A DNA stretch of 64,000 nt from Mesostigma viride. Its lineage: Eukaryota > Streptophyta > Mesostigmatophyceae > Mesostigmatales > Mesostigmataceae. The stretch is taken from the NCBI GenBank assembly GCA_009746045.1, contig RPFO01000842.1, forward strand, positions 28,501 to 92,500. The letters are read 5' to 3'. The translations under genes were made by a program, and so were the position numbers. The notes beneath the pieces were generated by a model that saw nothing but the letters and a program-made list of their open reading frames with translations, was not told where the DNA came from and ran no database searches. This document shows, one piece after another, positions 17,271 through 38,428 of the stretch; position 1 is the first letter of the stretch; each line of letters starts with the position of its first letter.

Positions 17271-18959
17271 CCCCTAAATGGTCTTGCTGCCGATTTTCCG
17301 CCAAAAATCGAGTTCCAGCCGATGCATCGGCCCCTTCTCGGGGGACCAGATGCCGCGAAATCTATTGAGAATTAGGAAAAGTTTAGCTGAGAAGATCGAA
17401 AGTTTATAAGTTTCTTCACAGCATGGTATATGGGTTTGCATACTTCTGACAAAGTTATAGATGTGTTCTTGCCGGTCAAAGTACAAGGGGTCAGGGTACT
17501 TTTTCACGTACAACGTGCATTCCGGAAAACAACGACCTGGCCATGGCGGCTTGCGCCCACGCATGGCATTTACGTTTTCGTTCGAATTTTCTGACCAAAC
17601 TTAGGATATTGATTTTATACGTCCTAAAGATGATACAGGCCAATTTTTGGTTCGCGGGAATGCCATTTGATAGGTGTCGGCAGCGTTCTTGCTGGAAAAA
17701 ACTGCGATCAGGCCGGACGATAGAAACGTTGACAGCAATACCTTTCCGGCGTATTTTAAAGGATATATCGGTTTCTTTGTACTTTTTATGATGCATAGTA
17801 GTCGTAAACGTGCAAGGGTGGCCAGAAATCGCCGAATCCAGCGACCATGCTGCACAACTTTGGTGTGCCGAAATGCGCCATTTTGCGGCCACCGCCTGGG
17901 CCAAGGTAACGCCATCCATGCCTGGTAAAGCTTAAGCATCGTTTTCCTATCGATGTTTGACGTTTATATGTACGTTCTAGCTTGTGTAGCACATTCTTTT
18001 TGCATTATTCATGCTCTTTCTTGACCCTGGCCTGGCCCCTTTCTAAAACACCCTTCTTAGATGCTTCCCTCAGTCAGTTGACCTGCCACAGGGTGATGGT
18101 GATAAGTTTTAGAGGCTGTATGGGTTTGAATACCTCCATATATGTTTGTTATACATTTCCCATACACATATTGCATGAGTGTGAGGCAGTTGGCTGGTCT
18201 CTGTGGCATCATCAAGCACGTAACTGGTGAGTAAAAGCTTTCCATTGACAGCATGTGCCACCAGGTGTGCTGGCCATCACCTGGCAAGCTATAGCAGCTT
18301 AGGCCTAGTTTATCCTTGCTAGGGCAGGCTGAAATAGGCTCAACATCACTAGTTTGTTGGTGGCTGCCTCCTAGAATGCATGCCTTGCGTAGGGTATCCG
18401 TACCACGTTACCTACGTGCATGGACAAGGTAGCACCTGCACATAGGTGCCATGTAAGGGCAGTGTGATGATGCAGTTATGTTTCCCCATCATTGTGGAAG
18501 GGAAATGTATTGTTTGGCATGGTTGGTGGCCATATTAGTAGGTAGTATGCCCACCCCTACCCCCTTGGTTGCTTTTTACCAACGGTACCCCTAAGGGCTG
18601 TACTGGGTGTAACTGCTGGTATACCCACCCAAATGATGACCCCAATGGCTCAAACTGTTCAGCAACTAATTGTTTATCATCCCTGAAGTGGTAGGTGCCT
18701 AGCTCTTATAACATAATTCAAAATGCACATTCTACCAAAAATGAAAACGCGCGTCTTGACCCCCCTGACTTTGACGGCAGTTATATATGGCCTACCCTGC
18801 ATATATGTGAGGTTGTGATATACCAACCCGAAGGGCAACTCATGGACGTGCTTGGCCCCCAAGGACAGCCATTGGATATGGGTAGGTTGGATGGCATCTG
18901 GTTTGCAAAATTGTGAAGATCCAGCCGATTTATCGGCAGGATCTCAGACCATTTAGGGG
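17271..18959. mobile_element. TTAA-flanked DNA transposon, 1689 bp, inserted in LINE
   Basis: Perfect 14-bp inverted ends CCCCTAAATGGTCT lie at 17271-17284 and, as the complement, at 18946-18959. Each is bordered by TTAA (17267-17270 and 18960-18963). The sister LINE has a single TTAA at the same position (30284-30287), so the element duplicated TTAA on insertion. Subterminal palindromes (CCAGCCGATGCATCGG near 17315; a related one near 18920-18940) lie inside both ends. TTAA targets and CCC-starting ends are typical of piggyBac-like elements. No recognisable transposase is encoded; the longest frames (for example 17491-17919 minus) match nothing I know, so it is probably non-autonomous. Confidence 0.85.
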
Positions 18960-18963
18960 TTAA

Positions 18964-20549
18964 GCCCCCCGGCAGGGCCCACATCGGTATTCACCTGGTC
19001 TGTGCGGGCAAGATGGCCGGCAAAGAGGAGGCGGCGGTGTCGGATGGTAGTATGGGTGACAAGAGGGAGCTCGCAGTAGAGCTCGGCCCGGGTGCGGCGT
19101 TCTTGGTAGCGGACGCCGAGGATATGACGGAGCATTCGAGTGACGGTGCCGTCAAGCTGCTGGCTCAGCGCCTGGTCCAGGGTCCACGCCTCGCAGCCAT
19201 AAAGGAGGATGCTGAGGACAAGGGCCTTGAACAGAATGCGCTTGCGTCGCTCACTCAGGTAGCGACAGGTCCAGAACCTGTCGGCTGTCGAGGCGGCGGA
19301 GGGCCGCCCAGGCCTGGCCAATGCGGGTGTTGATGTCGTCGGCCGTGGAGGGAAGCCAGCTGCCAAGGAGCTTGAAGCCGGAGTCGCCGGGGGGACGGGG
19401 CTGCCGTCTAGCAAGAGGAGGGTGGGTGGGGCTATCCCAGCAGGGAAGCCGATGGCCATGACCTCCAGTTTTCTTGCTGATCATAAGCCCCACCGCCCGC
19501 GCTTCCAGTGATAAGCTGTCTAGCCACAGTTGGGCTGACTCTGGGGTTTCCACGAGTGTCGTGTCATCAGCGTAGATCAGATCGCTCAGGCGGTAGGGTG
19601 GGTCAACCCCGCCGTAGCTGGCGTACTCCGTGACCTCGATCCCCGGCGGGCGCCCCTCCACCCGGGCGAAGCGGGCTTGTGCACGCCGCATAATATAGTC
19701 CACCATAATGATGAATAGATATGGGGAGAGCACACAGCCCTGCCACACCCCGGTGTGCAGGGGAAACGCCGGAGTGACGCCGTCGGCGGTACGGACCTGG
19801 GCTTGGGACCCTTCATAGAACTGGCGGATGATCTCAACGATGTACGATGGGACACGGAACAGGTGAAGGACCACCCACAGGGCGTCCCATATAACCGTAT
19901 CGAATGCCTTGGTGTAATCCACGAAGATCAATAGCAATGGCAAGAGGCCGGGGGCCAGGCGGCCCACTTCCTCGATCAGGCGGCGCGCGGTAATAGTGAC
20001 CATAACACAATTGCGACCAACACGGAAGCCCATCTGGGACTCACCTAGGTGGGGATCGAGGCTGGCGCGCATGCGGTTCAGCAGGAGACGCATGAAGACT
20101 TTCAGCACGCAGCTTTGGAGGCATACGCCGCGGTAGTTGCCGGTATCCGCGGCGGACCCCTTGCCCTTGTACAGCATGACCCGGACAGCGGTCTTCCAAT
20201 ACGTCGGCGGGGGGAGGCCATCTCGTAGAATCCGGTTGCAAACACCCCGGAGGAAAGGCTCAAGCTCAGGCATCTTAACCACCTCCGGTGAAATATTGTC
20301 CACTCCCATGGCAGCATCATTGCGGAGGGTGGAGATGGCAGCAGCCCATTCCTGGGGAGTCCACTCGTCGTGGGGGCCGTCCACCAAGGGGCCGGAGAGC
20401 GGTGGGACCAGGTAGTCCGTCTCGCTGGTGGGCGCCTGCGGGGGCTCAATGGGGCCGCCTCGGCTGGCCGCAGGGCGTGCAGCTGCAGCGGGGTCAAGCG
20501 GGGGGGCGGGCCAGGGGCCCCTGATAGTTTGGCCTGGGAGCTGAACCAA
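18964..20549 (-). pseudogene. LINE reverse transcriptase, copy 1, frameshifted
   Basis: Reverse transcriptase core with YKGKGSAADTGNYRG, the motif FVDYTKAFDTV (first catalytic Asp), GVWQGCVLSPYLF and YADDTTL (catalytic Asp pair). It continues into the typical LINE C-terminal stretch LFKALVLSILLYGCEAWTL and RRLLFAGHLART. There is a +1 shift at about 19460, where the sister copy lacks one C, and another change of frame near 20550 joining the upstream linker. All visible catalytic residues are intact, so inactivation is recent. It would copy element RNA at a nicked target. Confidence 0.85.
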
Positions 20550-21328
20550 ATCTCAAGGCGTTCACTGGGGGTGCCTGGGATGTCAGCCCGTTGCGTTTCC
20601 CGGCGTCCGGTGAGACGGTCGAGAGAGCGCCAGGCCGCCTTGTGCTGGTTGGCGGCCGTGTGGCGATTGATTTCGGCGGCAAGTGTCTCCACCTCCTCCG
20701 CATGTGCGGCAGTATATATGCTTGAGTAAGCCGTTCCTGGTACGGGTACAGGTCCTCCCCGCGGCGGCGGGCCTGCGCTAGCGCCAGCCGGGCGCGGCAA
20801 CCACCCGGGCGGATCGCGCAGGTAGAGCGGGGCTGCATGGTCGGGCGCGGGGTTGCTTGGGGAGAAGCTTAGAGCCAAGCTCCACCGATCGCATGAACAG
20901 TTCGTAGGGTGGCGTGACTGATCTACACCGCGATCTGCGTCCAGGTACATCAAAGGTTGCGCGTCCACGAACGCAGACCTGATTGCATCGCGGCGTATAT
21001 CTCATCCGCTGACCACTTCTCCCTGCGCCCACGGACGGGGCGTAAGCAGGTCCAGCTAGTCAGGGCGGGGCCGGGGGCGGCGGCGCGCAGGGGCCTGAAG
21101 ACGTAGGCGCAAGGTTGCGGTGACCATGCGATGATCCGATGCGACACTGGGGGTGGTCAGCGTACGGGCATCGATGACGGAAGAGCGCCAGCACTTGCGC
21201 ACAAGTATGTAGTCCAAGCATACACATCGCCGCCGAGGGAGCATCGAGCCAGCCGCCCTGCGCATGGGGCCCACAAAGGTCACTAGTGCATCAGGCGGTT
21301 TTGCAAACAGCGTATTGGCAGCAGTCAA
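20550..21328 (-). pseudogene. LINE endonuclease C-terminus and linker, fragment
   Basis: 21328-21056 encodes the end of an apurinic-type endonuclease: CLDYILVRKCW and the catalytic-site motif SDHRMV. The following linker carries TAYSSIYTAAHAEEVETLAA and is frameshifted relative to both neighbours. The N-terminal half of the endonuclease is absent (5' truncation). Confidence 0.7.
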
Positions 21329-21811
21329 GTCCCCCTCAGTGATCAGTTGCTCAAGTACTGAGGGGCCAAGCCCCTACTAACGGCATCACAGTCTTATTCA
21401 AGTCCTCTCTATCGATCGTACTTACTTACTTACTTACTATTGATCATGGAAGATGGGCCAGCGGCCAGGTTGGCAAATACGTGCGTATTGTCAAAATAAA
21501 TACGGCAATACGCGTTTTTTTGGCCCCGACGTACTATACGCGTATTTTGTCAGGAATACGTGATTTGGACTTGGAAATTTTCGAGGTTCGAGCTGGGGCA
21601 GCGCTTGGCGCCTGGCCAACCGGACCGTGGCGCGGCGCCTACCTTTACCAAGATTTTCTACACTGTACTATGAGCTAGGCTTTTCGCAAGTCCAGTAATG
21701 ACTTGGCAGTTGGCGAGCTAGCTGAAATTACACGGAGAGACCGAGAGAGTGCCAGCACGATGAAAATGCCAGCTGTGCTGGGAACGTGGTATTTGTAACA
21801 CAGCCTGTATC

Positions 21812-21975
21812 CGCAGGCCAGAAATCGGGAGAATCCGGACCATGGTAGCTCGAGCCTGCCGTTATCTTGTCCGCGTTTTCGAGTCGTTCAGGATGATGAA
21901 GATGAATGGTGTTGGAAATGTGTAGCCTTGTGCATTGAAATTATGGCTGGCTTACGTGTAGAGCGACTAGATGAC
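21812..21975 (-). repeat. Dispersed repeat D, copy 1
   Basis: About 160 bases, containing GGGAGAATCCGGACCATGG and CTCGAGCCTGCCGTTATCTT, recur inverted at about 28002-28165 and partly at 56985-57115 inside an aldo/keto reductase intron. No coding capacity. Probably a short non-autonomous mobile element; its exact ends are not defined by the three copies. Confidence 0.65.
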
Positions 21976-22969
21976 CTAGACGGTGCATGGGGCCGGAAAC
22001 AGCATGCTTGATCAGGGCGTGTCAGTGTTTCGAACCTAACTGGCCGGGAGTGTCTAGCGGTGAGCACCATTGCTGCGATCGCTCTCCCACCATTTACGAG
22101 GAAATACCCGAAAATGGAAAACCACTGAAAAGGTCTAGCTAGTCAGTCATCACGTTAGCCATGCCATGATTCCAAACGTCCAAGAACTGCACACATTGCA
22201 AAGGCAAAAAGCCGGAGGACAGCACTTTCAAATGTGCGGCGGGAACCAAAAGCCCGCGTATGCCAGAAAACATCGTGTTGCTGCAGCGACGCGACGATGT
22301 GGACAACGAATCCAGTTCCAAGCTCGGAACGGCCGCAAAGGAGATCTGGCATCACAGGGTTCAGATGTGCGGAGATACTATATGCGATCCAGCCGGTCCA
22401 CGATCTGTTTGTAGAGCAGCCTTGCAAGGAATGTGCACATGCAGTAATGGGTACGTAAATTATGGTGGCAGGTTGCCAGGTAGGGAATAAGTGCAAGGAA
22501 TGTGCACATATTGCATTAAAAAATTATGGAAGGCTGGTGGGGAATAAGTGCAAGGAATGGTGCAGATTGAATTATGCCTTCCACCATAATTTACTGATCT
22601 CCATGCATAACAATGCCCCCTAAGGCCTTAACCCTAAAGGCCCATTCATAACCATGCTGCACACTGCCACGTATTCTGCTGACGTATTCTGCCATGCTCC
22701 ACGTATAATACTCGTATTTTGAGGCCGACGTATTTGACGTACCGAAGTATTGGCCAACCTGGGCCAGCGGCATTTAGCTTTTGCTTGGGTGGTTGGGTGG
22801 GACAGTACACTTTCGGGCTAGGGCAACTTGGCAGCATGCACCTAGACAACAGTCTGGTGGACTATCATGGTATCCTATAGACGACCACAACAGTTGGCAC
22901 GCGGTTTATATGGTGAACATGTGGTTGGATTCATTAATAAGACAATTAATTCATCAGAGCATGGTCATG
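21976..22969. other. Non-coding stretch with short local repeats
   Basis: No gene is recognisable. Around 22425-22560 the word GCAAGGAATG(T)GCA occurs three times in a degenerate 60-90 bp periodicity. The rest shows nothing I can name. Confidence 0.4.
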
Positions 22970-23505
22970 GGCGCCGAGGCGTGGACACTCACGGCAACAA
23001 TGCAGTAGCTTAGCTGCCATGGCAGCTAAGCTAGACGGCACGGTTTACAGGATGCTCTGACAGGTCCTGAACATAGGGTTTTCTTAGCGTAGGTCATTAG
23101 AGTCTTTGTATCAGGGTATGCCTCGTATTTCGGACGAGATTATAGGCAGCGTAGGATAGCATTTGTAGGACACCTTGCTCGCACCAGCCAGGTCGACACC
23201 GCCCTTGGTCTGGCCGGTCCCCAGCGGCTCGGCCAATCAGGGCGGCATATTTTGACCTGGCCTGGCCCCAAGAACATTCCTAAAAGGGTAGGGAAACATG
23301 CCATGAACTACTCCCAGATGTTGCTGGCCGACCAATAGCACTTGGTCCCAGCCCAGTTTGAACACCGCATCCCCTCTCTCTCCCTTCTCGACTGCCATGC
23401 AGGACAAGACGCGGTGGCAGAAGATTGTCAAGGCTCACACGTCAGCCCAGGTGTGGGCAAGCCACCTCCCCCCAAGAGGAGGAGGCGTTTTGATGAGTAG
23501 TGTAG
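22970..23505 (+). pseudogene. LINE 3' fragment (diverged, decayed)
   Basis: Short pieces in several frames match the C-terminal part of the local LINEs: GAEAWTLTA, LDGTVYRML, then FVGHLARTSQVDTALGLAGP, ending near PPKRRRRFDE before a stop at about 23500. The equivalent in the LINE at 16.8-21.4 kb is GCEAWTLDQ and FAGHLARTDQVNTDVGPAG. The polymerase itself is missing. Confidence 0.6.
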
Positions 23506-23627
23506 ATAGGCTTAATTTCTACTAAGACTAGATAGCTTAGAGTTAGGTTAGTTCGATTACGCGGCTTCCTCCACTCCACCGGCCATCCATAATGGAATAT
23601 GTGATACATGATCTCCCAACGGAGGCA

Positions 23628-24075
23628 TTAATTAATTAATTATAATTAATTAAACACGTGCTCCCGTTGGGGAGTCACGGAGCACTGAAGTGCTTTTAAT
23701 CCCTGTGTGTGCACTACAGGAGAAAGGGCAGAGACCCCCAGTCTCCTTCATGCCAAAGGCATGCCACAGCTGCAATCGGGCGCGCTAGCTAAAAGGACAG
23801 GCTAACGATCCGGCAAACTGTGGGTGCAATAAGACCCATGTAAGCGTGGCATAACAAGTATAGCGTGGGCAAGTAATCTGACCATAGCCCGGGCGTAGCA
23901 TGGCTGTACTAGGACTAGGCTAAGGCTATGGCTGGTTGTGTACCGTGCGTTGGCGGCACGTGACTAGGTATGTTGGCATAGCTAGGCAAACATTCTAGGC
24001 ATGGCCGCCTTAGCGGCAGTGACTCCAATGGTTACAATTGCTAGGGCTATTGCTATTCTAGCCCGCTGGGGGCGT
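23628..24075 (-). repeat. Family B 3' tail ending in (TTAA)n
   Basis: Noncoding 3' tail of the ORF1 element that follows at higher coordinates (minus strand). On the plus strand it begins with TTAATTAATTA then CTCCCGTTGGGGAGTCACGG. Other copies are at about 34985-35451, 39700-40173 (plus) and, truncated, 63062-63190. Like family A, it ends with CTCCCAACGG-type sequence and a TTAA microsatellite, suggesting that the two families share 3' end recognition. Confidence 0.72.
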
Positions 24076-25455
24076 CCACATCTTGTGGTTGATCATCGAT
24101 CAGGTCCCCGCCCCTCCAGTACACCTTGGGCTTCTGGGGCCTGCTGCTTATGGCGGAGGTATTCCGGCCACAGGTCGCGTCGCTACTGTTGCTGAGCGGG
24201 GGTCAGGTCGTCATCCAGCGTCCAGGTGAGGTCGTGCAACCTCTTGCGACGAGAGAGGAACCGCTGCTTATCCTCAGGGGAGGGGAAGGTGAGCAGGACT
24301 GGTGGGGGAGTCGCCTTGTTCCGTGAGTGGGGAAGGCGGTGGCACCCACGCAGTTCTACCTCCACTACCAGGCCCATGAGGGTAAGAAGCTGCATGCAGT
24401 CCTTGAACTCGTCAGCAAGAGAGGTTGACGTCTCACCTGGCTTCTGGGGGAAGCGACGTAGCACCACTCGGCACTCGCGGCGAGCGCGGTCGGTGACCTC
24501 CCGTTGCTGGGCCTGGCGGTGGTCCTCCAGCTCCTGGATCGAGCTTCGTGGCGATGGCGTCGGTGGTGGAGGCGGTCGCTGACCGCTGCCAGCAGGTCCG
24601 CGTAGGAGAGCGGCGGGAGGTCACCAGCATCCTGCCGGGGTGGCTGGGATGCAATGGTGGCCGTCTGCTCCGCTATCTTGGGGACCTGTGTGGCCAGGGC
24701 CTCGGTGTGGGCGGTGATGGCCTCAAGCTTCTTCATGAGCACGCCGCACTTGCCCTCCACCTGCATGTTAAGGCGAGAGACAAGTGCAGCATGCGTTTCC
24801 GAAGCTTGCGCCGCGGTGTGCAGCGTCGTGAACTGGGGCTGGATCGAGCTTGTGGACGACCTTGGTTTCCACATTGGAGACCCGGGCCTCCACCGTGTTG
24901 AGCGTCGTGTTCAGCGATGTCAGCTTCTCGGCCAGCGGCCAGGTCACGTGCTCCTCCAGCACTGCGTGGATGTCATCCTTGCAGAGGGAGGGAGCCGAAG
25001 GGGCTGCCGGCTGTGCGGGGGCGGGGGCGTTGAGCGCTCTGCTGATGTCGGCGAGGCTGCGCTGGTAGTAGCTGGTCAAGAGAAACAGGCGTTGGCGTGG
25101 TTCTTCATAAGTGTAGAGCCAGGACGTGTTGCGGTAGTCAATAGCCGCCCCCCCCTTCTGGGGCACGAAGAGCTTCCGTTCCTGTGTGAGGAACTGGAGG
25201 ACCTCGGCGACTTCCTGCGGCGACAGTTTCTGCCACTCAAGGAGGGAGAACCTACTGTCGCCTGGCAAGAATTGGCTCCATTTGTGGCGGTCGTGGCATG
25301 GTTTCTTGGGCTCAGGCGAGGCGCTTGGCGATGCCCGGGTCTGCTGGCGATGGGTTGGCGAGCCCAGGCGGCTGGGCAAGAACGATGGCGAGAGGGTTGG
25401 GCTGGGAGCCGGTAAGCTCCTTTTCCAAACCCCGTTTTGCTTTTTGGGTCGTCAT
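24076..25455 (-). pseudogene. Non-LTR ORF1, family B, copy 1 (frameshifted)
   Basis: Start MTTQKAKRGLEKEL at 25455 parallels the family A start MTSKRP. The reading frame then shifts near 25350 to a frame containing KWSQFLPGDSRFSLLEWQKL and again near 24860 to one with VSRLNMQVEGKCGVLMKKLE (heptad pattern, probable coiled coil). It ends in a C-terminal region with FLSRRKRLHDLTWTLDDDLT and AQQQ, homologous to family A. No reverse transcriptase follows; the 3' tail starts directly. A second copy is at 37.6-38.4 kb on the same strand. Confidence 0.65.
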
Positions 25456-25689
25456 TGCTGCTTGTCACGTGATATAACTTTGGCAATACTGCGTTTCAGC
25501 CATAACCGATTATATGGCGTGTACGTCTGAATAAAGCGTGCATCGAATGTGAGTGGTCTGAACGAATTTGGGGCTCAGACGCAAAAGATCTGAGCTCCGC
25601 CGTCAGCCATACCGCCGTCAGCCATTTTCATGTCAATTCCTCAACGGAGGCATGTTATTATTCAATTCAATTTAATGGTCATGGGTGGT

Positions 25690-26005
25690 TGCTGGGTCAG
25701 CGGGTGGAATGGGTGCTTGGTCACTAGCTGGTGGGTAGATAGATGTGTGCTTGGTCAGTGCCGGGTGGAACGTGTGCGTGGTCAGTGGGTGGAACGTGTG
25801 CTTGGTCAGTGGGTGGAACGTGTGCTTGGTCAGTATGGGGAACCCGTGCTGGGTCAGTGGGTGGAACGTGTGCTTTGTCAGTGGGTGGAACGTGTGCTTG
25901 GTCAGTGGGTGGAACGTGCGCTTGGTCAGTGGGTGGAACGTGTGCTTGGTCAGTGGGTGGAACATGTGCTTGGTCAGTGGGTGGAATGTGTGCTTGGTCA
26001 GTGGG
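25690..26005. repeat. 24-bp minisatellite
   Basis: About 12 copies of a 24-bp unit (GGTCAGTGGGTGGAACGTGT plus GCTT). Because 24 is divisible by three, all frames stay open and give 8-residue repeats (HTFHPLTK on the minus strand). This is not evidence for a gene. Confidence 0.9.
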
Positions 26006-27130
26006 CCATGCAACCCCTACCTTCTATGGCATCACATCTTGGAAAGAGACGGGCTTTCCCACACCCATCGATCCCCTCACTATAGAAAAGAAGCACTCCC
26101 TCGAAGGGAACCTGGCCAGTGAGGGCCATGCTGATGACAACGCCCAGAAATTGACCCAGCTCACGCATGGTCACCGGGTGCCACTCACGCGCGCCGGGCT
26201 TGCCAGCCCCCTTGAGCTCAGCATTATTAGTCGTTGGCCTCCTTGACAACCTTGGCCATGACATCACGTTGGGACCAGAAAATTAAGGGAGAATGAGCCC
26301 CATGCAGTGGCGAGAACTTAAGCTCGTCAGAGGAAAGGTTTTGATAGCATGCAGTACCTGTCAGGCGCGCGGCAGCACCGGAGTCTCGGGAAAAGGAAGC
26401 GCATCTGGCTTGCCGAAACCGTATTTCCACAATGTCGGCTGGCTCCTCGTCATGGCAGGCCTGCGTGTCGTCAGGTAAATCCTAATCGTCGAGCTCAGCA
26501 TCACGGCTCGGCAACGGACCCTCCGCGCCTTGCACGTTAACACAGTCGACATCGGATCGAAGCGTCCGAGTCTGACAACGCTCTCGCGGGCCGTCGCCTG
26601 GGTCTCACGGCGCCTTTTCGGGGCGTGGCTGATGGCTGGGTTCTACTTCGAGTTGCCGTCAGCACGCTGCACCGGCTTGCGTCGCTTGATCGGCATGGGC
26701 AGCTCGATATGTATCCTCAGATTTGTCGTCGTCGTCCTCGCCGGCGTAAGAATCACTACCCTGGCCCTGCGCTCGCTATCATCGTCACTGCAATCTGCTG
26801 TAAGGACCTTAATTCCTGGCTGCGCATTCTTTTACCAAAGCTTCACAATCATCTGAGCTGCAAGAATATATGAATTAAAATCTGCTAACGGGTGAATGGG
26901 TACGTCAGCTTGGCGTCCGGAAAATAGCACCGTGCACCATCTCCGGACGGCTTCACCGTCACTACCTTGCCCGGCAAACGTACCTGGCTGTGTTTTTCCC
27001 CATACTGCTCTATCGCCCAGTCTGACACGAAAATTTCCACAGGCATGGCACTGCGATGAAAATGCCCTTCTTTAGCTTCTAAGGGCGTATATCTGCATGC
27101 ATTTCGCACGCCATGTCTACGTCCGCGCAT
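26006..27130 (-). pseudogene. Decayed piggyBac-like transposase
   Basis: Minus-strand pieces in several frames: an N-terminal part with SDWAIEQYGEKHSQVRLPGK (27130-26885), a charged Arg/Asp/Ser-rich middle, and a part with FWSQRDVMAKVVKEAND (about 26290-26230) running into WHPVTMRELGQFLGVVISMA (about 26190-26130). The last motif resembles the start of the piggyBac DDE domain (known pattern: t..El..flGl.i.mG). Stops and shifts break it, and the catalytic Asp residues are not visible. The assignment rests on pattern resemblance only. Confidence 0.4.
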
Positions 27131-27157
27131 GCCCCCCTAAGTTTTTCATTTTTGTAC

Positions 27158-27817
27158 GTTTTTTCATTTTAACCAGGGCCTGGTTAAAATACGGTGCTGA
27201 GCTATGATTGGGCTACGAGCGGTTACAAAAGAAACCTGAACATTGTAACGGTTCGTAGCCCAATCATGGCTCAGCACCGTATTTTAACCATGCAGGGAAA
27301 GGCCGAGGCCACAGCCTGCTCGTTGCCCGAGCCATTTTCCCTGGTTAAAAGAAGGTGCTGAGCTATGATTGGGCTACGAACGGTTACAAAAGAGGTGCTG
27401 AGCTATGATTGGGCTACGAACGGTTACAATGTTCAGGTATTCCGCTCCCAGCTGTGGCAACAGAAAATGGCTGGGCTGCGACCTGGCTACGACCTGGCTG
27501 TAGCCACGGCCTAGCGTTGGCTAGGGAAAATAGCTTGGGCTAGCTACGAGCAGGCTGCGGCCTCGGCCTTTCCCTGGTTAAAATACGGTGCTGAGCAATG
27601 ATTGGGCTATGAACGGTTACAATGTTCAGGTCCCTTTTGTAACCGTTCGTATAGCCCAATCATAGCTCAGCACTGTATTTTAACCAGGGAAAGGCCGATC
27701 GAGGCCGCAGCCTGCTCGTAGCCCATGCAAGCTATTTTCCCTAGCCAACGCTAGGCCGTGGCTACAGCCAGGTCGTAGCCAGGTCGCAGCCCAGCCATTT
27801 TCTGTTGCCACAGCTGG
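27158..27817. mobile_element. Compound fold-back element cluster
   Basis: Nested inverted repeats. Arms 27448 to about 27630 and about 27634 to 27817 are near-perfect complements (start CCAGCTGTGGCAACAG). A shorter palindrome (27178-27290, containing GGTGCTGAGCTATGATTGGG) is a second copy of the same central hairpin, and single arms recur at about 27355-27430. Boundaries often read TTAACCAGGG or its complement, so a TTAA-targeting MITE family is likely. It sits next to the decayed piggyBac-like gene. Confidence 0.75.
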
Positions 27818-28001
27818 TATGATGTCGCGGCCTGGCTGCTACCGGCCGGAAGGAACCAAACTTAGCTGATACCTCCATGGATTAGTCTAGTAGTTGAACC
27901 AAATGCCAGTTTGCACGGTTTAATTTCCAGCTGTGGGTTGCATCACTTGTTTGGCATAATTGATCAATTTTTGTAAAACTGCATGACTATACGTTATTGC
28001 A

Positions 28002-28165
28002 CGTAAGCCATGCAGCCATAATTTCAATGCACAAGGCTACACATTTCCATCACCATTCATATTCATCATCCTGAACGACTCAATTAACACGCGGACAAGA
28101 TAACGGCAGGCTCGAGCTACATACATACCATGGTCCGGATTCTCCCGATTTCTGCATGGCCTGCG
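28002..28165 (+). repeat. Dispersed repeat D, copy 2
   Basis: Reverse-complement partner of 21812-21975. Relative to that copy, it carries TGCATG where the partner has TG at two places (around 28011 and 28155). Confidence 0.65.
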
Positions 28166-28262
28166 TTAATTGGTTGTCTCCTTGATGTTATTGCAGTGTC
28201 AGTGGGAAGAAATTCAGCAATTTGTTGCCTACCACAATTTCTTTGGTGTTTATGCATATGTA

Positions 28263-30850
28263 GTTACTATAAGCCTTAGGCTTCTCCCCAAGCAACCCCG
28301 CGCCCGACCAGCCCCGCTAGCTCTACCTGCGCGACGCCTGGGTGGTTGCCGCCCGGCTGGCGCTATAGCGCAGGCCCGCCGCCGCGGGGAGGACCTGTAC
28401 CTGTACCAGCAGGAACGGCTTACTCAAGCATATATACTGCCGCACATGCGGAGGAGGTGGAGACACTTGCCGCCGAAATCAATCGCCACACGGCTGCCAA
28501 CCAGCACAAGGCGGCCTGGCGCGATCTCTCGACCGTCTCACCGGACGGCGGGAAACGCAACGGGCTGACATCCCAGGCACCCCTGGCAGTGAACGCCTTG
28601 AGATTTGGTTCAGCTCCCAGGCCAAACTATCGGGGGGCCCTGGCCCTCCCCCCCCGCTTGACCCCGCTGCAGCTGCATGCACGCCCTGCGGCCAGCCGAG
28701 GCGGCCCCATTGAGCCCCCGCAGGCGCCCACCAGTGAGACGGACTATAATTATACCTGGTCCCACCGCTCTCCGGCCCCCTGGTGGACGGCCCCCACGAC
28801 GAGTGGACTCCCCAGGAATGGCCGGCTGCTGCCATCTCCACCCTCCGCAATGATGCTGCCATGGGAGTGGACAATATTTCACCGGAGGTCACTGGTTAAG
28901 ATGCCTGAGCTTGAGCCTTTCCTCCGGGGTGTTTGCAACCGGATTCTACTATACGAGATGGCCTCCCCCCGCCGACGTATTGGAAGATTCACCGCTGTCC
29001 GGGTCATGCTGTACAAGGGCAAGGGGTCCGCCGCGGATTATTACCGGCAACTACCGCGGCGTATGCCTCCAAAGCTGCGTGCTGAAAGTCTTCATGCGTC
29101 TCCTAGCTGCTGAACCGCAATGATGCGTGCCAGCCTCGATCCCCACCTAGGTGAGTCCCAGATGCGGGCTTCCGTGTTAATATTGGTCGCAATTGTGTTA
29201 TGGTCACCATTACCGCGCGCCGCCTGATCGAGGAAGTGGGCCGCCTGGCCCCCGGCCTCTTGCCATTGCTATTGATCTTCGTGGATTACACCAAGGCATT
29301 CGATACGGTTATATGCCAGGGACGCCCTGTGGGTGGTCCTTCACCTGTTCCGTGTCCCATCGTACATCGTTCGTTGAGATCATCCGCCATGCATGCAGTT
29401 CTATGATGAAGGGTCCCAAGCCCAGGTCCGTACCGCCGACGGCGTCACTCCGGCGTTCCCCCTGCACACCGGGGTGTGGCATGCAGGGCTGTGTGCTCTC
29501 CCCATATCTATTCATCAATTTGTGGTGGACTATATTATGCGGCGTGCACAAGCCCGCTTCGCCCGGGTGGAGGCCGGGCGCCCGCCGGGGATCAAGGTCA
29601 CGGAGTACGCCAGCTACGGCGGGGTTGACCCACCCTACCGCCTGAGCGATCTGATCTACGCTGATGACACGACACTCGTGAAAAACCCGAGTCAGCCCAA
29701 CTCTGGCTAGACAGCTTATATCACTGGAAGCGCGGGCAGTGGGGCTTATGGTCAGCAAGAAAATGGAGGTCATGGCCATCGGCTTCCCTGCTGGGATAGC
29801 CCCACCCACCCGGCTCCTCTTGCTGGACGGCAGCCCCGTCCCCCGACTTGCTTCAAGCTCCTTGCATGGCAGCTGGCTTCGATCCTCCGCCACGGCCGAC
29901 GACATCAGTTCACCCGCATTGGCCAGGCCTGGGCGGCCCTCCGCCGCCTCGACAGGTCCTGGACCTAGCTGCCGTTACCTGAGTGAGCGACGCAAGCGCA
30001 TTTTGTTCAAGGCCCTTGTCCTCAGCATCCTCCTTTATGGCTGCGAGGCGTGGACCCTGGACCAGGCGCTTGAGCCAGCAGCTTGACGGCGCCGTCACTC
30101 GAATGCTCCGTCATATCCTCGGCGTCCGCTACCAAGAACGCCGCACCCGGGCCGAGCTCTACTACTGTACTGCGAGCTCCCTCTTGTCACCCATACCATC
30201 CGACACCGCCGCCTCCTCTTTGCCGGCCATCTTGCCCGCATGCACAGACCAGGTGAATACCGATGTGGGCCCTGCCGGGGGGCTTAAGACGGGCCAACCA
30301 GGTAGACACCTCCTCCTATGGCAGGGTCCCCTTGTCCCATCGCAACCCACTGGCAAACTTGCGCGCGCCGGACACCGGCGCGGCGCGGCGCGGCGCGGCG
30401 CGACCCGGACCTATGTGACACTGTCAACTTCTTGAAGATGCAGGGCTTCTGGGACTATCTGTACTCCGCGCCCGCATGATTGACAAGGAGAAATGGGCTG
30501 CCATATCTGCGATAAGCACCTTCCTGAGGGGTATGCTCCTGTTTTCTCCCCACGGGCCCGGCCCGCGGCCCGTTAATTGCTAGCCAGGGTAGAAGTCCGC
30601 AGGTGGAGGTTATTGGCCCTGAGGATAGCCGCTACACTACTGTACCGCCTCGTCTGCCATTACTGAGTATAGAGGACAGCTCGGATGAGGATTACATCCC
30701 CATCTAGTGGTTGGTTGGGGAATGATGCAGACGATTTTTGTTTATTAAACTTTTGTGTAATTATTTTTTTCCTTCTAATGAGATTAGCATAGTACTCCGT
30801 GGCATGCCTTTAATTGCGCATGACACGCAAGTACTTACTTATTATACTTA
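28263..30850 (+). mobile_element. LINE copy 2, 5'-truncated, many small indels
   Basis: Plus-strand sister of the LINE at 16.8-21.4 kb, starting in the linker before the polymerase (28263) and ending at the shared 3' end with TACTTACTT near 30835. The polymerase motifs IFVDYTKAFDTV (about 29276) and LSDLIYADDTTLV (about 29645) are recognisable but lie in different frames, because numerous 2-8 bp insertions break the frame. Nucleotide identity with copy 1 stays high between the indels. It keeps the uninterrupted TTAA site (30284-30287) that is occupied in copy 1. Confidence 0.85.
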
Positions 30851-32039
30851 TATAAGCCTTAATGATAAACCTAACTAGAATAAAATATGCACTTCCAATG
30901 TCCACATTGCGTGACTGTGCATATTGCATGTTTTATGGGGCTTTGGCCGGTCTCTATAGTCAAGGGGTGTTTTCCCAACCCCCACTAGTAGGTACCAAAC
31001 TCCGCCACAATTCATGACAACCCATAATAAAATAACCCAAGACATGTATTAACTAAAACCTGACATATACAGTGTAGGATGCAAAATAGGCATACTTTAA
31101 GTTTGCTCAAGTTTTTGGCATACATGCATGGCCAACTGAGCAAACTCTTGCATGGCCACCAACTCCAGTATTTGTGCTATGTACTTGGATGTCGTTTCCA
31201 CTCAATGCCATGAAAAACAGCAAGAACCGTGACATCTCGGTTGAGAATACGACCAAATCGCACTTCAGTAAGCCATGTCATCGCTATTTTTAGCACCAAA
31301 AAGCTTGAGAATTATGTCAACATGATTTCCCCCCCCTACTTGTGCTAATTGGATGTCGTTCCCACTCATTGCCATCAAAAGCAGCAAGAAATCCAACATC
31401 CCGGTTGAGAATACGACCAAAATCGCACTTTAAGCCATTTTATCGCTAGCTTTAGCACAAAAACGGTTGAGAAGTTGCCAAAGTATGTCAACATGATTTT
31501 TTCCCCACTTTTGTCCTACTTGGGTGTCTCTTCGACTCAATGCCATCAAAAGTAGCAAGCTAGAAACCCATCATCTCAGTTTTGCACAAATATAGGGTCG
31601 TGGATTTGTGCAAAACCCGGTGGATCCCCGCTGCATGGGTTCGAAACCTCGTGGGGACAGTGCCTGAGCAGGGATTATTTGGGAGGATCCGCCGCGAGGC
31701 ACCGGTCGGACCTAACTAATCGCCTCGCGAGGTAGATGTCGAACCTTTCCGGGATTAATATCGAATCAGCAATTCGATATCAAATCAGTAATTCGATGCG
31801 GAAGTAAAACCCTAGTTATAGGGAGCTGCTTCGCCCCAACGCACAAGGTTTTAAGTTGTACAAGCTCTTGCTTATACTTTTTATATGCGCAAAAAAGTTT
31901 TAAGTTAAGTTTGCTAAGATAAACGCATATTCTTACATCCTGCGCAGGATGTAAGAATATGCGTTTACCTTAGCAAAAACGTAGCACTAGCTTAAGTATA
32001 CAACTGACACCTTGTGGAAGAACTGCAACGCCTTCAGCC
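30851..32039. repeat. About 165-bp tandem repeat and flanks
   Basis: Units start at about 31187, 31352 and 31517, each containing ACTCAATGCCAT and CGGTTGAGAATACGACCAAA; the third is cut off near 31590. No protein is recognisable. An inverted pair reading CTTACATCCTGCGCAGGATG-type sequence is at about 31918-31967. Confidence 0.6.
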
Positions 32040-33384
32040 TGGTGCTCAAGTCCCCTCTGCATGCACCTTGTGCTGGTGAACTTCATCAAAGCCTTCGATT
32101 CGGTTTTCTGGCCTGCACTGTGGGACATCCTGGCTCTGTTCCTGATGATCCCCCGCCTCGATCCTTGTTGCTGTCATCCGCAAGGCCTGTATGAAGGGTC
32201 CACCACTTCGGTGCGCATGTCTTCCTACGGGACCACGCCACCATGCCCTTTACACAAGCTAGGGGGTGTGGCAGCCTGGCTGCGTGCTGTCGCCCTACCT
32301 GCATGTTCATTATTGTGGTCGAATACGTAATGATTCAGGCGCGCAAGCGGTTTGCCCGCATAATTGTGGGTAGGGAACCAGGGGTGCAGGTCGCCAACCC
32401 TTTCTGCATGGCATGGCGGGGCGGACACGGAGATCCGGTTAGCAGACATTATCTATGCAGACGACACCACCCTCTTCGAGGGCACTGAGCATGAGCAGAC
32501 GTACGTGGCTAGTTGGCTGCCTGGCAATCCGGAGGCCCGTGCGGTGGGGCTAAAATGAGGTCAGCAAGAAGACAGAGGCTCTGGCGATTGGGCTCACTCT
32601 GAGCCACCGCCCGACCTCTTTCTCCTTGACGGCTCTCGAGTCCTGTATAGGGACCGCGTCAAGTTGCTGCATGGGCCGACTCCTCCCCAGCTGCGAGGCC
32701 GATGTGGACGTACCACCGTATCTCCCTCGCCTGCCCACGCTTTACGCCCATACCGGGCCCTGTGGCGCAAGCCCTTGCATGGGCAAGATAGAGAAACAGG
32801 ACCTGTTTCAAGGTCCTAGTACGTCCTCCATGCAGCTGTTCTTACGTACGGGGCCGAGACGTGGACCCTCACTGCCGACCTGGCCAGAAAGCTAGACGGC
32901 GCGGTCACCAACATGCTAGCTGCGATCCATTTTCCGTGTAGGCTACTACGCTGCCCATGTTCGCAATGAGGACCTATACCTCGGCATGCCATATATCACC
33001 AGCACCAATAAGCAGCGGCGCCTGCGGTTAGTAGGGCACTCAGTTAGCTCGCACCAATCAGGTCAAGACACCTCACGTACGTGGCCCCCCCGTGGGGCTG
33101 CGCCCCGCTCAGCTAGCTGCAGCTGGCCGGCACCTCCTTACGTGGGCTGGGCCCCGCCATGCTCGACGCCGCAAGGCCCGCACCTTCAAAGAACAGCTAG
33201 TAGAGGATATGCGGGGGGGCTTGGCCTCTCCGTGATTTGGAACAAGATGATGGACAAGGCCAAGTGGGCCCAGGTCATAGAGGACAAAGACCCCCCCCCC
33301 CCCCGTGGGGAAGCGCCCGCGTTTGCAAACACGCGGGAAGCACGCCAGACAGGTCCCATTAAGGGTATAGAGAGCTTAGACTAG
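32040..33384 (+). pseudogene. LINE copy 3, diverged reverse transcriptase fragment
   Basis: Polymerase pieces in shifting frames: VNFIKAFDSVFWPALWD (about 32070), CVLSPY-like region near 32285, RLADIIYADDTTLFEGTE (about 32440), then ETWTLTADLARKLDGAVTNM (about 32860) and MPYITSTNKQRRLRLVGH (about 32986). The end reads [14 protein letters not shown] and stops at 33384. It is more distant from copies 1 and 2 than they are from each other and is 5' truncated before the first catalytic motif. Confidence 0.75.
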
Positions 33385-33440
33385 AGTTGGCTTGATGTTA
33401 TATAGATAGGTTATAGAACGGTAGCATTGCGTACGTGTCC

Positions 33441-34284
33441 CCATCCATCCATCCATCCATCCATCCATCCATCCATCCATCCATCCATCCATCCATCCAT
33501 CCATCCATCCATCCATCCATCCATCCATCCATCCATCCATCCATCCATCCATCCATCCATCCATCCATCCATCCATCCATCCATCCATCCATCCATCCAT
33601 CCATCCATCCATCCATCCATCCATCCATCCATCCATCCATCCATCCATCCATCCATCCATCCATCCATCCATCCATCCATCCATCCATCCATCCATCCAT
33701 CCATCCATCCATCCATCCATCCATCCATCCATCCATCCATCCATCCATCCATCCATCCATCCATCCATCCATCCATCCATCCATCCATCCATCCATCCAT
33801 CCATCCATCCATCCATCCATCCATCCATCCATCCATCCATCCATCCATCCATCCATCCATCCATCCATCCATCCATCCATCCATCCATCCATCCGGCCAT
33901 CCATCCATCCATCCATCCATCCATCCATCCATCCATCCATCCATCCATCCATCCATCCATCCATCCATCCATCCATCCATCCATCCATCCATCCATCCAT
34001 CCATCCATCCATCCATCCATCCATCCATCCATCCATCCATCCATCCATCCATCCATCCATCCATCCATCCATCCATCCATCCATCCATCCATCCATCCAT
34101 CCATCCATCCATCCATCCATCCATCCATCCATCCATCCATCCATCCATCCATCCATCCATCCATCCATCCATCCATCCATCCATCCATCCATCCATCCAT
34201 CCATCCATCCATCCATCCATCCATCCATCCATCCATCCATCCATCCATCCATCCATCCATCCATCCATCCATCCATCCATCCAT
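33441..34284. repeat. (CATC)n tetranucleotide array, about 840 bp
   Basis: About 210 uninterrupted copies of CATC with one irregularity, ATCCGGCCATCC at about 33891-33902. It starts about 60 bases after the LINE fragment. All six frames are open (SIHP and MDGW repeats), which is an artefact of the unit. Confidence 0.97.
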
Positions 34285-34327
34285 ATGCGCACCAATCTGC
34301 GAGCGAAGCGAGCACCGTACTATTCCA

Positions 34328-34443
34328 GCGGGCAGCGGGCAGCGGGCAGCGGGCAGCGGGCAGCGGGCAGCGGGCAGCGGGCAGCGGGCAGCGGGCAGCG
34401 GGCAGCGGGCAGCGGGCTGCGGGCTGCGGGCTGTGGGCAGCGG
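34328..34443. repeat. 7-bp GGGCAGC tandem array
   Basis: About 16 copies of GGGCAGC, the last few changed to GGGCTGC or similar. It follows the CATC array after about 40 bases. Confidence 0.9.
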
Positions 34444-34825
34444 GGCGAAGTACTGCCAAAAAAAGGGACCCTGCATGCTTTGGGCTGGGCGGAGCCAGCG
34501 GGTTACTCTATAGTTAATTCATTAATTACAGTAGGCACAGGCGCCTGGGCCTACATAGCCGGGCACCTGGCTGGCCCGCACAGATTGATCAGGTAGACAC
34601 ATCATGCAGATAGACTAGTAGTTGGCACCAAGCCGGCCGCCCATGCAGCCTGGGCGTTATATGTCCTCACCTGGCGTGCCCCGGCCAGCCCGTGCGCGGC
34701 AGGGCCGCCAGCCGTGGACTTTTCGTGATAGACTCGGCATGGACATATGTGCTACTCTATATAAAAGTGCAAACCATTAAGGGTATGTTAAGTACACTCT
34801 GATATGTAAGTAATATTATATTTTT

Positions 34826-34980
34826 AAATGCATATTTTCATTGAGAATGATAGAGAACGGAAGTGAGAGTGGCATGCAACAAAAGGAAGTTAAACCCCGA
34901 AAAGAAGAACCCGGTAAAGACAAAATACTAAGAATCTTCTGACACGGGCATGCAAGGATCAAACCTGAGCCTGCTGAGTG
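34826..34980 (-). repeat. 3' end of the retroelement seen at 38.5-39.6 kb
   Basis: Reverse complement of the last part of the sequence downstream of 39349 (shared words CATTGAGAATGATAGA and GGCATGCAACA). It is noncoding and truncated. It shows that the element at 38.5-39.6 kb is a dispersed family ending near TATATTTAA. Confidence 0.6.
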
Positions 34981-34984
34981 ACGG

Positions 34985-35500
34985 TCATTAAATAAACTTG
35001 TGCTCCCGTTGGGGAGTCGATTGCACGGTCCACGGAGCACCTGCGGAGTGCCTTTTATCCCTGTATGTGCACAACAGGAAGAAAGGGCAGAGGCGCCATT
35101 TCTCCTTCATGCCAGAGGCATGCCACAGCAGCAATCGGACATGACAGACGATCGATCCGGCAAGTGCTGTGGGTGTGCACAATAAGACCCGTGTGAGCAT
35201 ATCACAGTAACAAGGAGCGTGGGCAAGTAATCTCATCACACGGCCGGCCGGGACGTAGCATGGCTGTCTGTACAAGGGCTAAGCTAAGGCTATGGCTGGT
35301 TGTGTACCGTGCGTTAGCGGTGTGCACACGCTAGGTATGGTGGCACGGCTACTACTAAGGCAAACATTTTAGGCATGGCTGCCATGGCGGCAGTGGCTCA
35401 CCAATGATTACAAGACTGCTAGGGCTATTGTAGCCCGCAGGGGGCGTCCAATTAATTAACTCGTGCTCCTGTTGGGGAGTCACGTGGAGCATTAACCCCC
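34985..35500 (-). repeat. Family B 3' tail copy
   Basis: Matches the tail at 23628-24075 (GCTCCCGTTGGGGAGTC at its start) up to GGGGGCGTCCA at about 35441-35451, the end of ORF1 coding sequence. A second partial tail start follows at 35452-35500 (CTCCTGTTGGGGAGTCACG). Confidence 0.7.
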
Positions 35501-35554
35501 GGGGCGATGGATGGATGGATGCATGGATGGGCACAAGCGTGCACCTCACGTCCC

Positions 35555-36643
35555 ACAAACGCGGCCGCTGGCCTGGTAATGGCCAGCTTGCCGACCCCGC
35601 CGAGGCTCTCCCAATCATTCACCGCATGATGAATCGCCCCAAGCTCCAACGCTTGAATCGCCCTCTGCTCCCTCCTTGGACGCTCCGAAACCGCGATCTG
35701 GGCTTCCCCACCGGCCCCCCCCACCGTTTCCCACCGAAGACACCATCCGCACCCTCCTCAAGGAAGCTTTCGAGCAGCACGTGACCCCCCTTGCCGCAGA
35801 TGTGGCGGCAATTGGAGGCGGCACGCTGGCTGCTGAGCTTCCCACCATCCACACCGCCACCGCCACCCTCCTCGCCTCCACCCCCCCCCCCTCCGCCTCC
35901 ACCGACTCCATCACCGCCCAGCTCCGCGACATCGACCAGCGCCTCAAGGATAATGCAATCGCTATCGAGGTCTTGCAGAACACAGCAGGCATCACCGCCC
36001 AGGCAGTGAAGGACATTGCCGCCAAGCCAGCCCCGGCTGCATGGCCTGGCCGGTGATGCTCCTCCCATCACGACCTGGGCGGACATGCTTAACCCATGGG
36101 TTAAGCAACATACCACCTCCACCACCTCCGCCGTCGCAGCCCAGCTCCAGCGGCAGACGCTTGACCTCCGCGAGGAGGCCGAGCTCGCCAAGCGCAGCCT
36201 CAACGCCATACTCAAGAACTTCGACATGGAAGAAGGTGAGAATTCCGAGAAGCTTGCACGGGCGTTTGAGAGCAAAATCCTTGCACGCATGGGCCTTCTT
36301 GGTGAGATCAAGCTGACCGCCCACCGCCTCCCCCGCGCGCGGGGTAAGGCAGGGCCGGGCGCCTCCGCTTAATTCTTCTCATCTTTGAGACGGCCCAGCG
36401 GACAAGATTTCGTTTCTCAGACGCCGCAAGCGGCTCGAGAAGACTCACTTCACCGTGGACGACGACTTGACCCTGGCACAGCAACAACGGCGACGGGAGC
36501 TATGGCAGACCTACCTCCAGCTCCGGCAGACCAAGGCGGGCCAGCCGGTGTACTGGAAGGGGGCGGCCATCTACGTCGGCCACAAGCCCTGGCACGCGAC
36601 CCCCTCGACCACCGCGGCCCCAGCGACTCCAGCCCCAGCCTAG
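35555..36643 (+). pseudogene. Non-LTR ORF1, family A, copy 2 (5' truncated, frameshifted)
   Basis: Homologous to 14200-15100 of copy 1. EAFEQHVTPLAADVAAIGGG (about 35760), the coiled-coil-like stretch and AQAVKDIAAKPAPAAWPGR are in one frame. LDLREEAELAKRSLNAILKN lies in another, and the C-terminal DDDLTLAQQQRRRELWQTYL with GQPVYWKGAAIYVGHKPW in a third, ending at TAG 36641-36643. A 12-bp palindromic insert TTAA-CCCATGGG-TTAA at 36089-36104 replaces the single TTAA of copy 1. The N-terminal third is missing. Again the 3' tail follows directly with no polymerase. Confidence 0.68.
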
Positions 36644-36669
36644 GGGAATACAGCAGCAGTAGTGTAGAA

Positions 36670-37477
36670 TAGTTAGACAGTGGCCTTGTACATGCCCGCC
36701 TACTACAGGCACTATACCAGCTGAGGCCTAGCCTTTTTAGTCATGTACATGTGTGCCTCCTACAGGCACTATACCAGCTGAGCCACGAGCATTATTTAAC
36801 CATGTACATGTGTGCCTATGACGTGCCACACTCCAGATGATGCCTAGTTTTGTTTAGTTATGCTGTGCCCATGCAGAGAGCTGCTCTCTGCTGAGATGCC
36901 ACGCTCTAGTTTTGTATAGCCATGATGATCTTCCCCCACATGGCATGCTCCCCCTTATAGCTGGGCATAGCGTGATAGACCATGAGGGTGCAGGTGCCCT
37001 GGTGCGCCTAGAGCAAGGGTAGCTTACATTCCCACCCTTGCATGAAGTAGCCTAGAATGTATTAAAAGCCATATGCCCCTTCTCAGGGATATGTGCTACA
37101 TTTACTCTCAGTGATGTTCCTAATTAATTAATTAATTAATTAATGTGTGCCTATGATGAGCCACCCTCCAGATGATGCCTAGCTTTATTTAATTATGCAG
37201 TGCCCATGCAGGGAGTCCCTCCCTGCTGAGAAGCCATGCCCTAGCTCTCGTATAGCCATGATGATCTTCCCCCACATGGCATGCTCCCCCTTAACTGGGC
37301 ACAGCGTGATAGACCATGAGGGTGCAGGTGCCCTGGTGCACCTAGAGCAGGGGTAGCTTACATTCCCACCCTTGCATAAAGTAGCCTAGAATGTATTAAA
37401 AGCCATATGCCCCTTCTCAGGGATATGTGCTACATTTACTCCCAACGGAGTGATGTTGATAATTAATTAATTAATTA
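36670..37477 (+). repeat. Two tandem family A 3' tails
   Basis: Two head-to-tail copies of the tail (36670-37143 and 37144-37477), each ending in (AATT)n. The first belongs to the ORF1 copy just upstream. The second may be a truncated insertion into the TTAA tail of the first, consistent with insertion at tail-like sequence. Confidence 0.7.
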
Positions 37478-37554
37478 ATGGGTACAAGCAATCCTACCGG
37501 TCTACTAAGCTATCTACAAGCTAGCTAAAAAAACAGTCCTACTCGATCTATAGC

Positions 37555-38428
37555 TATGGTGCCCGCGACCCTAGGAGCGGCGTCCACAGTCTTGTGGAGT
37601 TGATCATCAGGTCCCCGCCCCTCCAGTACACCTTGGGCTTCCGGGGGTCCTGCTTGTGGCGGAGGTATTCCGGCCACAGGCCGAGTCGCTGCTGCTGCTG
37701 AGCGGGGTTCAGGTCGTCGTCCAGCGTCCAGGTGAGGTCGTGCAACCTCTTGTGACGAGAAAGCAACCGCTGCTTGTCCTCATGCAGGGGAGGGGAACGT
37801 GCATGAGCAGGACTGGTGGGGGAGCTGCCTTGTCCCGTGAGCGGGGAAGGCGGTGGCACCCGCGCAGTTCTACCTCACCTACCAGGCCCACTGAGGGTAA
37901 GGAGCTGGTCCTTGAGCTCGTCAGCAAGGGTCATCTGGTGGCTGACGTCTCCCCTGCATGGCTTCTGGGGGAAACGACGCAGCACCACTCGGCACTCGCG
38001 GAGAGCGCGGTCGGTGGGCCGTCGATCCCATTGTTTTGCTTGGCGAAGGCCCTCAAGCTCCTGGAGTTTCGTGGCGATGGCGTCAGTGGTTGAGGCGGTC
38101 GCTGACCGCAGCAGGTCCGCGTAGGAGTGCGGCGAGAGGCTATCATCTGCCGGCCAGGTGGGCTGGGCTGAGATCAGGTGGCCGTCTGCGCTGCAATCGC
38201 CGGAACCTGCGGGGCCAGGGCGTCGGTTTGGGCGGTGATGGCTTCGTGATTCTTGACGAGCAGGCCGCACTTGCCCTCCACCTGATTTAGGCGAGAGACA
38301 AGTGCAGCATGCGCCTCAGATATGCCTGCGCCGCGGTCTGCAGCGCCGTGAACTGAGGTTGGAGCTTAATTGTGGGCGACCTTGGTTTCCAGTTTCGGCA
38401 CATTAGAGACCCGAGCCTCCACCGCACA
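37555..38428 (-). pseudogene. Non-LTR ORF1, family B, copy 2 (5' truncated)
   Basis: Aligns with 24076-24890. It has the C-terminal region with LLSRHKRLHDLTWTLDDDLN and KVYWRGGDLMINSTRLWTP, a coiled-coil-like part upstream, and several frame changes. It ends near 38428 at the junction with an unrelated plus-strand retroelement fragment. No 3' tail of its own is seen; it abuts the (TTAA)n of the family A tail. Confidence 0.65.

Follow-up and report, generated by a model that had tools for sequence, protein, structure and literature searches.

Four-base insertions with a target-dictated inverted filler in repeats of Mesostigma viride

Introduction

Palindromic (P) nucleotides are produced when hairpins are opened, in V(D)J joining as in hairpin-forming transposons, and topoisomerase II 4-bp end fill-in yields direct duplications. 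In four-point template-switch mutations, a neighboring sequence is inserted as its reverse complement in one out-and-back event (PMC7954356). Inverted foldback insertions at breaks are also a known reaction, and those reported in yeast are short templated inverted inserts sealed by end joining (PMC11724301). Here we analyze recurrent 4-bp insertions in a window of 64,000 nucleotides from the Mesostigma viride genome (contig RPFO01000842.1; positions below are those of this window unless stated otherwise), mainly in copies of a long interspersed nuclear element (LINE). Most of them follow a single rule, in which the target S (2, 3 or 4 nt) is replaced by its first two bases, then the reverse complement of S (rc(S)) as filler, then its last two bases, and the net gain is always +4.

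The scars of two-base targets are equivalent to a 2-bp duplication with two palindromic nucleotides added, which makes them like P nucleotides. However, the fillers of three- and four-base targets run in the opposite order, and no mobile segment was seen. The net gain of exactly 4 bp is shared with topoisomerase II fill-in, but a direct copy (a=b=2) accounts for 1/126 of the 4-bp LINE insertions. The template-switch mutations are reported with a median length of 12 nt and variable switch points (PMC7954356), whereas 2 to 4 nt are copied here, with two bases per side; also unlike those mutations, +4 insertions of the rule-fitting form are a major share of all indels here. The yeast foldback events are described as arising from existing inverted microhomology and as mostly 5 to 34 bp long. 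According to the same report, 1- to 4-bp insertions in yeast may form by foldback, but they are hard to separate from other nonhomologous end-joining mechanisms (PMC11724301).

Results

We searched a genome of 439,911,974 bp in 2243 contigs that includes the 64-kb window; the published assembly of M. viride NIES-296 is given as 441,847,188 bp in 2363 scaffolds (PMC6947507). The alignment contained two window segments and 30 genome loci of the LINE (numbered L001 onward, L001 being window copy B). These loci were the best of 1623 first-look candidates, of which 40 were scored, and they are not a random sample. Indels were polarized against the majority of loci, and only clean-flanked clusters were counted. 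The extended alignment held 81,317 aligned bases and 667 substitutions. Among the clean events there were 265 pure insertions and 26 pure deletions. Insertions of 4 bp were the largest length class (126), followed by those of 2 bp (69) and 3 bp (36), and none of the deletions was 4 bp long.

With events present in more than six sequences excluded, and with S lengths of up to 8 permitted, the rule fit 105 of the 126 pure +4 insertions. Random 4-mers at the same sites gave an expectation of 5.0 (binomial p ~1e-124), and the control fillers fit 25 (complement), 12 (reverse) and 1 (direct). The target was two bases long in 75 of the fitting scars, three in 16 and four in 14. Only S of 2 to 4 was needed, and the reach was constant at two bases per side. 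The first LINE segment alone, tested with events in more than 40% of sequences excluded, gave 76 of 88. Each such scar is a pair of overlapping mini-hairpins whose stems are 2 bp and whose loops are 0, 1 or 2 nt, and its filler is set by the target. The repeat left behind was always at least 2 bp for two-base targets, exactly 1 bp for three-base targets, and mostly absent for four-base targets (12/14). These counts, together with those from other repeats below, show that most clean +4 insertions in the LINE copies and the other examined repeats obey the rule.

The exceptions stay close to it. Eighteen of the 21 are off by one filler base, where about 4 would be expected from the random rate, and one such miss, ATG to AT.CAG.TG, is found with the identical wrong base in three copies (L003, L027 and L028). 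Six of the 126 are direct-only copies, in addition to rule-fitting palindromes such as TGCATGCA, which double as direct repeats. Self-complementary dinucleotides were absent from the 84 two-base assignments, although they make up 26% of background dinucleotides (p ~1e-11). They occur instead in the +2 class, as TATA, ATAT, CGCG and CG to CCGG. Palindromes account for 57 of the 69 +2 insertions, with 17.4 expected, and most 2-bp insertions are a palindromic class related to the +4 rule. CCGG was formed from CpG about 10 times in this class; it is self-complementary and retains one base per side. For the 3-bp insertions, agreement with an inverted-copy form was poorer (15/24, complement control 9, events in more than 12 sequences excluded).

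The context CCAG/CTGG was struck 10 times among the 75 two-base LINE scars, with 1.3 expected, and it was also the commonest two-base context in other repeats (7/29). Base composition around S showed a weak C before and a weak G after, and the rule itself needs no inverted microhomology.

The pattern had been claimed for unrelated sequences, and other repeats do follow it. In non-LINE repeats from the loci and the window, 35 of 42 unpolarized +4 events fit, with 1.4 expected (complement 6, reverse 2, direct 0); in a few of these rows, a single event is counted again in an overlapping context. Repeat E, with 20 genome copies and 3 in the window, gave 9 of 16, with 0.5 expected, under looser flanks than in the LINE test, and had 37 insertions against 8 deletions. 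Its alignments are more diverged (356 substitutions in 10,039 bases), and this accompanies the lower fitting share. In contrast to the dispersed repeats, the tandem arrays of 26- and 50-bp units (43063-45685 and 59200-59749) contained no indels. With only 7 and 6 distinct substitution variants in these arrays, the absence is weakly informative. A 24-bp tandem array has its core in register, with 2% indels over its full length.

Within the window, 28 of 150 gaps were set aside for poor flanks. Of the 122 with good flanks, 39 were 4 bp, and 23 of these create XY.rc(XY).XY (not polarized). In a strict test, where flanking mismatches make a cluster fail, 17 of 32 net +4 clusters fit the rule (direct 1, reverse 1, complement 6). 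Scars beyond the XY.rc(XY).XY form include ATA to AT.TAT.TA at 29037 and ACCA to AC.TGGT.CA at 16286. Whole-window word counts were less favorable: words of the two-base form numbered 324 against 192 expected, and the complement control was also raised, at 262 against 177. Three- and four-base words reached only 1.14 and 1.17 times expectation, below some controls; the complement and reverse control words for three-base targets stood at 1.40. The two-base excess varied from less than 1 to 3.6 per 2-kb bin, with peaks at 32-34 and 40-42 kb, and was about 1.1 to 1.2 in the bins covering LINE copy A.

The sequence-only reading that drew attention to this pattern had listed 16 sites. Pairwise alignment of window copies reproduced 15 of them at or within a few bases: 20832, 24096, 24536, 24841, 28011, 28155, 28318, 28675, 29103, 29387 (an 8-bp double event), 29480, 37780, 37800, 37953 and 38365. 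At 36037, in open reading frame 1 (ORF1) family A at 81% identity, the alignment shows separate +3 and +1 gaps, and the listed event is not confirmed. A CGTT-type duplication near 29370 is present and, as had been said, lies off the pattern. The formula XY to XY.rc(XY).XY, described there as a 2-bp duplication with its complement between, holds as the two-base case; it is incomplete as a general description, and the wider rule covers targets of three and four bases. The observation is therefore confirmed as real and is wider than first described.

Of 344 distinct insertion clusters, 326 were private to one copy. Across the 32 sequences, these stood beside 364 private substitution clusters, and the two loads were correlated (Spearman 0.75). 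Subfamily substitutions are common to copies but insertions rarely are; L006 and L007 have 11 substitution clusters in common and 0 insertions. Because the insertions are mostly private and correlate with private substitutions, this suggests that they arise in place, over time, after a copy lands. The insertion fraction is uneven among copies beyond a uniform clock (chi-square 77, 31 degrees of freedom); some copies, L015 and window copy B among them, carry more than their share. In eleven cases, the same +4 insertion is present in two or three loci, through descent or repeated hits, and three of these cases fall in the pair L029 and L030.

The same data bear on whether a sequencing, polishing or assembly artifact produced the scars, as had been considered. 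L029 and L030, 99.6% identical over 2.7 kb, represent either a recent duplication or a single locus that was assembled twice. Nine insertions are common to both, and the differences between them amount to 1 substitution and 5 clean indels. Three of these indels are homopolymer steps, one is complex and one is a CG to CGCG step that would count as +2; the +4 rule fits none of the five. In this one pair, most of what separates near-identical contigs does not resemble +4 scars. An artifact is unsupported, because the insertion load tracks private substitutions and this contig pair shares nine insertions; both tests rest on assembled contigs. The published NIES-296 assembly is also reported to have used 113x PacBio, 162x Illumina and optical maps (PMC6947507). 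We regard an artifact as extremely improbable.

Other kinds of insertion were also seen. Insertions of 5, 8 and 9 bp at TA sites occur at 28118, 28745, 28947, 30160, 30638 and 40574 and in L010 near reference position 3260. They include TA.CTG.TA and TA.CAGTCTG.TA, which we take to resemble Tc1/mariner excision footprints, and are probably a separate, minor class. Among the LINE copies, the only ones screened for this, six insertion rows were at least 15 bp long, and none had a 2- to 4-bp duplication. Their reference overlaps were 5, 6, 7, 9, 12 and 15 bp. The overlaps of 5 and 6 bp have termini AGTTA... and both read as 5-bp duplications; those of 7 and 12 bp are LINE tail pieces. The insertions in L004 and L022 end in inverted AGTTA...GGAACCTTTTT termini and seem to carry 5-bp target duplications. 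Those in L027 and L028 have CGCAAAGGTGAAAAC-type ends, with an approximately 9-bp direct repeat in L028.

Discussion

Any account of these scars must yield the reverse complement of a break-spanning S, two bases of S kept per side, and S of 2 to 4 with a constant +4. It must also assign self-complementary dinucleotides to the +2 class instead of the +4 class, and let scars accumulate with age. We favor, at a probability of about 0.52, break-repair or template-switch synthesis with a fixed geometry, with error-prone end joining as the cause. In this scenario, short-stagger breaks or stalled ends would be joined in an error-prone manner. Each 3' end would be extended by inverted copying of the break-spanning bases, through foldback or a strand switch, and the two complementary tails would then anneal and be sealed. 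At self-complementary dinucleotides, the tails would pair over four bases rather than two, which would explain why these are found in the +2 class and not among the two-base +4 scars. Foldback or template-switch synthesis followed by joining appears to fit the inverted filler, the dinucleotide split and the accumulation with age. A Pol theta-type enzyme is a candidate polymerase, because two terminal base pairs are reported to suffice for human Pol theta to begin stem-loop synthesis (PMC11292364). Such a two-base-pair start may make two retained bases per side natural. The break-and-repair branch of the original interpretation is kept as the preferred class, its cut-and-excise branch is disfavored for reasons given below, and the interpretation as a whole is partly supported.

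Several points weigh against this proposal. No stepwise chemistry that we considered yields all three target classes, and the path to three- and four-base targets is incomplete. Plain tandem duplications of 4 bp make up six of the 21 exceptions, and repeat E fits the rule less closely. The yeast foldback reaction uses existing inverted microhomology, whereas the rule here needs none and reaches two bases per side. In addition, the CCAG/CTGG preference may indicate an enzyme that favors certain sequences instead of random damage. A tentative alternative, possible but improbable in our estimate, is a dedicated or strongly enzyme-shaped mutator that acts on repeats. A CCAG/CTGG-preferring activity would open the DNA and reseal it with the site's 2 to 4 bp flipped and two bases refilled per side. 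It would place +4 frameshifts in transposons, in an insertional parallel to repeat-induced point mutation.

Replication could also produce such scars without a double-strand break, if the nascent strand hopped to the opposite strand 0 to 2 nt ahead, copied to 2 nt behind and hopped back, as in the four-point model. Each rule-obeying scar can be written as one such event with equal offsets at both jumps, and in great apes short switches are reported to be widespread (PMC7954356). The median copied length given there, 12 nt, exceeds the 2 to 4 nt seen here, our two-base reach is fixed, the rule works without microhomology, and LINE insertions altogether are nearly as numerous as private substitutions; we consider template switching of this kind unlikely. 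Reverse-transcription errors at retrotransposition would suit the facts that the clearest family is a LINE and that its insertions are mostly private. However, private insertions track private substitutions, and the rule holds outside the LINE, in repeats of unestablished retrotransposon status. We set this explanation aside on the age correlation and the other repeats, and its probability is very low.

The cut-and-excise idea holds that the scars are excision footprints of DNA transposons with 2- to 4-bp target duplications and hairpin flanks. CT.AG.CT is the expected trace of a 2-bp duplication plus two P nucleotides, and TA.CTG.TA at 30638 and TA.CAGTCTG.TA in L010 look like Tc1/mariner footprints. 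Against this, the duplication length is not constant, with S of 2, 3 and 4 at a constant +4. The filler is the reverse complement of the target in 105/126, not element-end bases, a few CTG/CAG fillers excepted, and its order for three- and four-base targets is rc(S) and not that of palindromic end additions. At the LINE insertions of at least 15 bp, the direct repeats measure about 5 to 15 bp. The published description of Stowaway/mariner footprints has a small duplication accompanied by short element-end sequences (PMC4561436). Element excision was set aside as disfavored, since none of the six long insertion rows in LINE copies, the only copies screened, has a 2- to 4-bp duplication, and we hold it to be decidedly unlikely. 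A plain P-nucleotide model fails on filler order for the three- and four-base targets (30/105 scars), and simple fill-in duplication fails because direct-only copies are rare (6/126).

We know of no genome described with such an insertion spectrum, and among the papers listed in our literature searches we found no account of it. Clean insertions in the LINE outnumber deletions about 10-fold, and their main length class falls under one exact, target-dictated rule. The scars may be an in vivo signature of end or fork handling at two-base resolution, and possibly of a transposon-inactivating mutator. Repeat annotation and pseudogene calls in the Mesostigma genome may be shaped by +4 frameshifts.

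Additional features of the window

The scars and LINE copies in the window are collected in Table 1. LINE copies A and B are 98.5% identical, with 43 gap events in which insertions in B prevail. The open reverse transcriptase (RT) frame of copy A (19254-20552, minus strand) contains PF00078. Its best match is an M. viride protein at 62% identity; the top four matches are at 58 to 62%, and two of them are named Mesvir1. One IMG/VR scan returned no relatives of this protein, and at gathering thresholds the window had 0 Rfam matches.

Table 1. Positions of LINE copies and insertion scars in the window (S, target; dots separate kept bases from filler)
Feature	Position	Strand	Element or remark
LINE copy B	28277..30287	+	most private insertions among copies examined
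LINE copy A	18960..20871	-	few private substitutions; RT frame open
LINE 3' tail copy	16753..17274	-	aligned to 30280-30850
S=CT, CT.AG.CT	28317..28322	+	LINE copy B
TGCATGCA, S=CA/TG	28674..28681	+	LINE copy B; also direct TGCA duplication
S=GTG, GT.CAC.TG	28888..28894	+	LINE copy B
S=ATA, AT.TAT.TA	29037..29043	+	LINE copy B
S=CT, CT.AG.CT	29103..29108	+	LINE copy B
S=CAT, CA.ATG.AT	29118..29124	+	LINE copy B
S=TGG, TG.CCA.GG	29314..29320	+	LINE copy B
Double scar, CA to CATGCATGCA, +8	29388..29397	+	LINE copy B
S=CA, GCATGCA	29479..29485	+	LINE copy B
S=TG, TG.CA.TG	29863..29868	+	LINE copy B
S=CT, CT.AG.CT	29965..29970	+	LINE copy B
S=CA, GCATGCA	30238..30244	+	LINE copy B
S=ACA, AC.TGT.CA	30420..30426	+	
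S=CC, CC.GG.CC	30558..30563	+	
S=TT, TT.AA.TT	30573..30578	+	
S=TT, TT.AA.TT	30810..30815	+	
S=CA	20834..20839	-	LINE copy A
S=TC, TC.GA.TC	24096..24101	+	ORF1 family B
S=GA, GA.TC.GA	24537..24542	+	
S=GCA, GC.TGC.CA	24585..24591	+	
S=GA, GA.TC.GA	24842..24847	+	
S=CA, CA.TG.CA	37781..37786	+	
S=TG, TG.CA.TG	37800..37805	+	
S=TG, TG.CA.TG	37955..37960	+	
S=TT, TT.AA.TT	38366..38371	+	
S=CA	28009..28014	+	repeat D
S=TG	28153..28158	+	repeat D
S=ACCA, AC.TGGT.CA	16286..16293	+	repeat F
S=TGC, TG.GCA.GC	39772..39778	+	repeat E
S=TT, TT.AA.TT	40058..40063	+	repeat E
S=AG, AG.CT.AG	31558..31563	+	repeat H
S=CA	27289..27294	+	inverted-repeat element G

Inverted-repeat element G (27179-27820) consists of nested inverted repeats and has many genome matches in both orientations. 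The host gene at 3500-6000 has only distant paralogues in the genome, the best at 80%. Host gene pieces with a metallo-hydrolase domain and an HNH endonuclease domain lie at 3596-4381 and 46674-47498. Among the matches listed for the metallo-hydrolase gene (at least 120), those with organism names are all bacterial. Long low-complexity runs adjoin the metallo-hydrolase and HNH endonuclease gene pieces.

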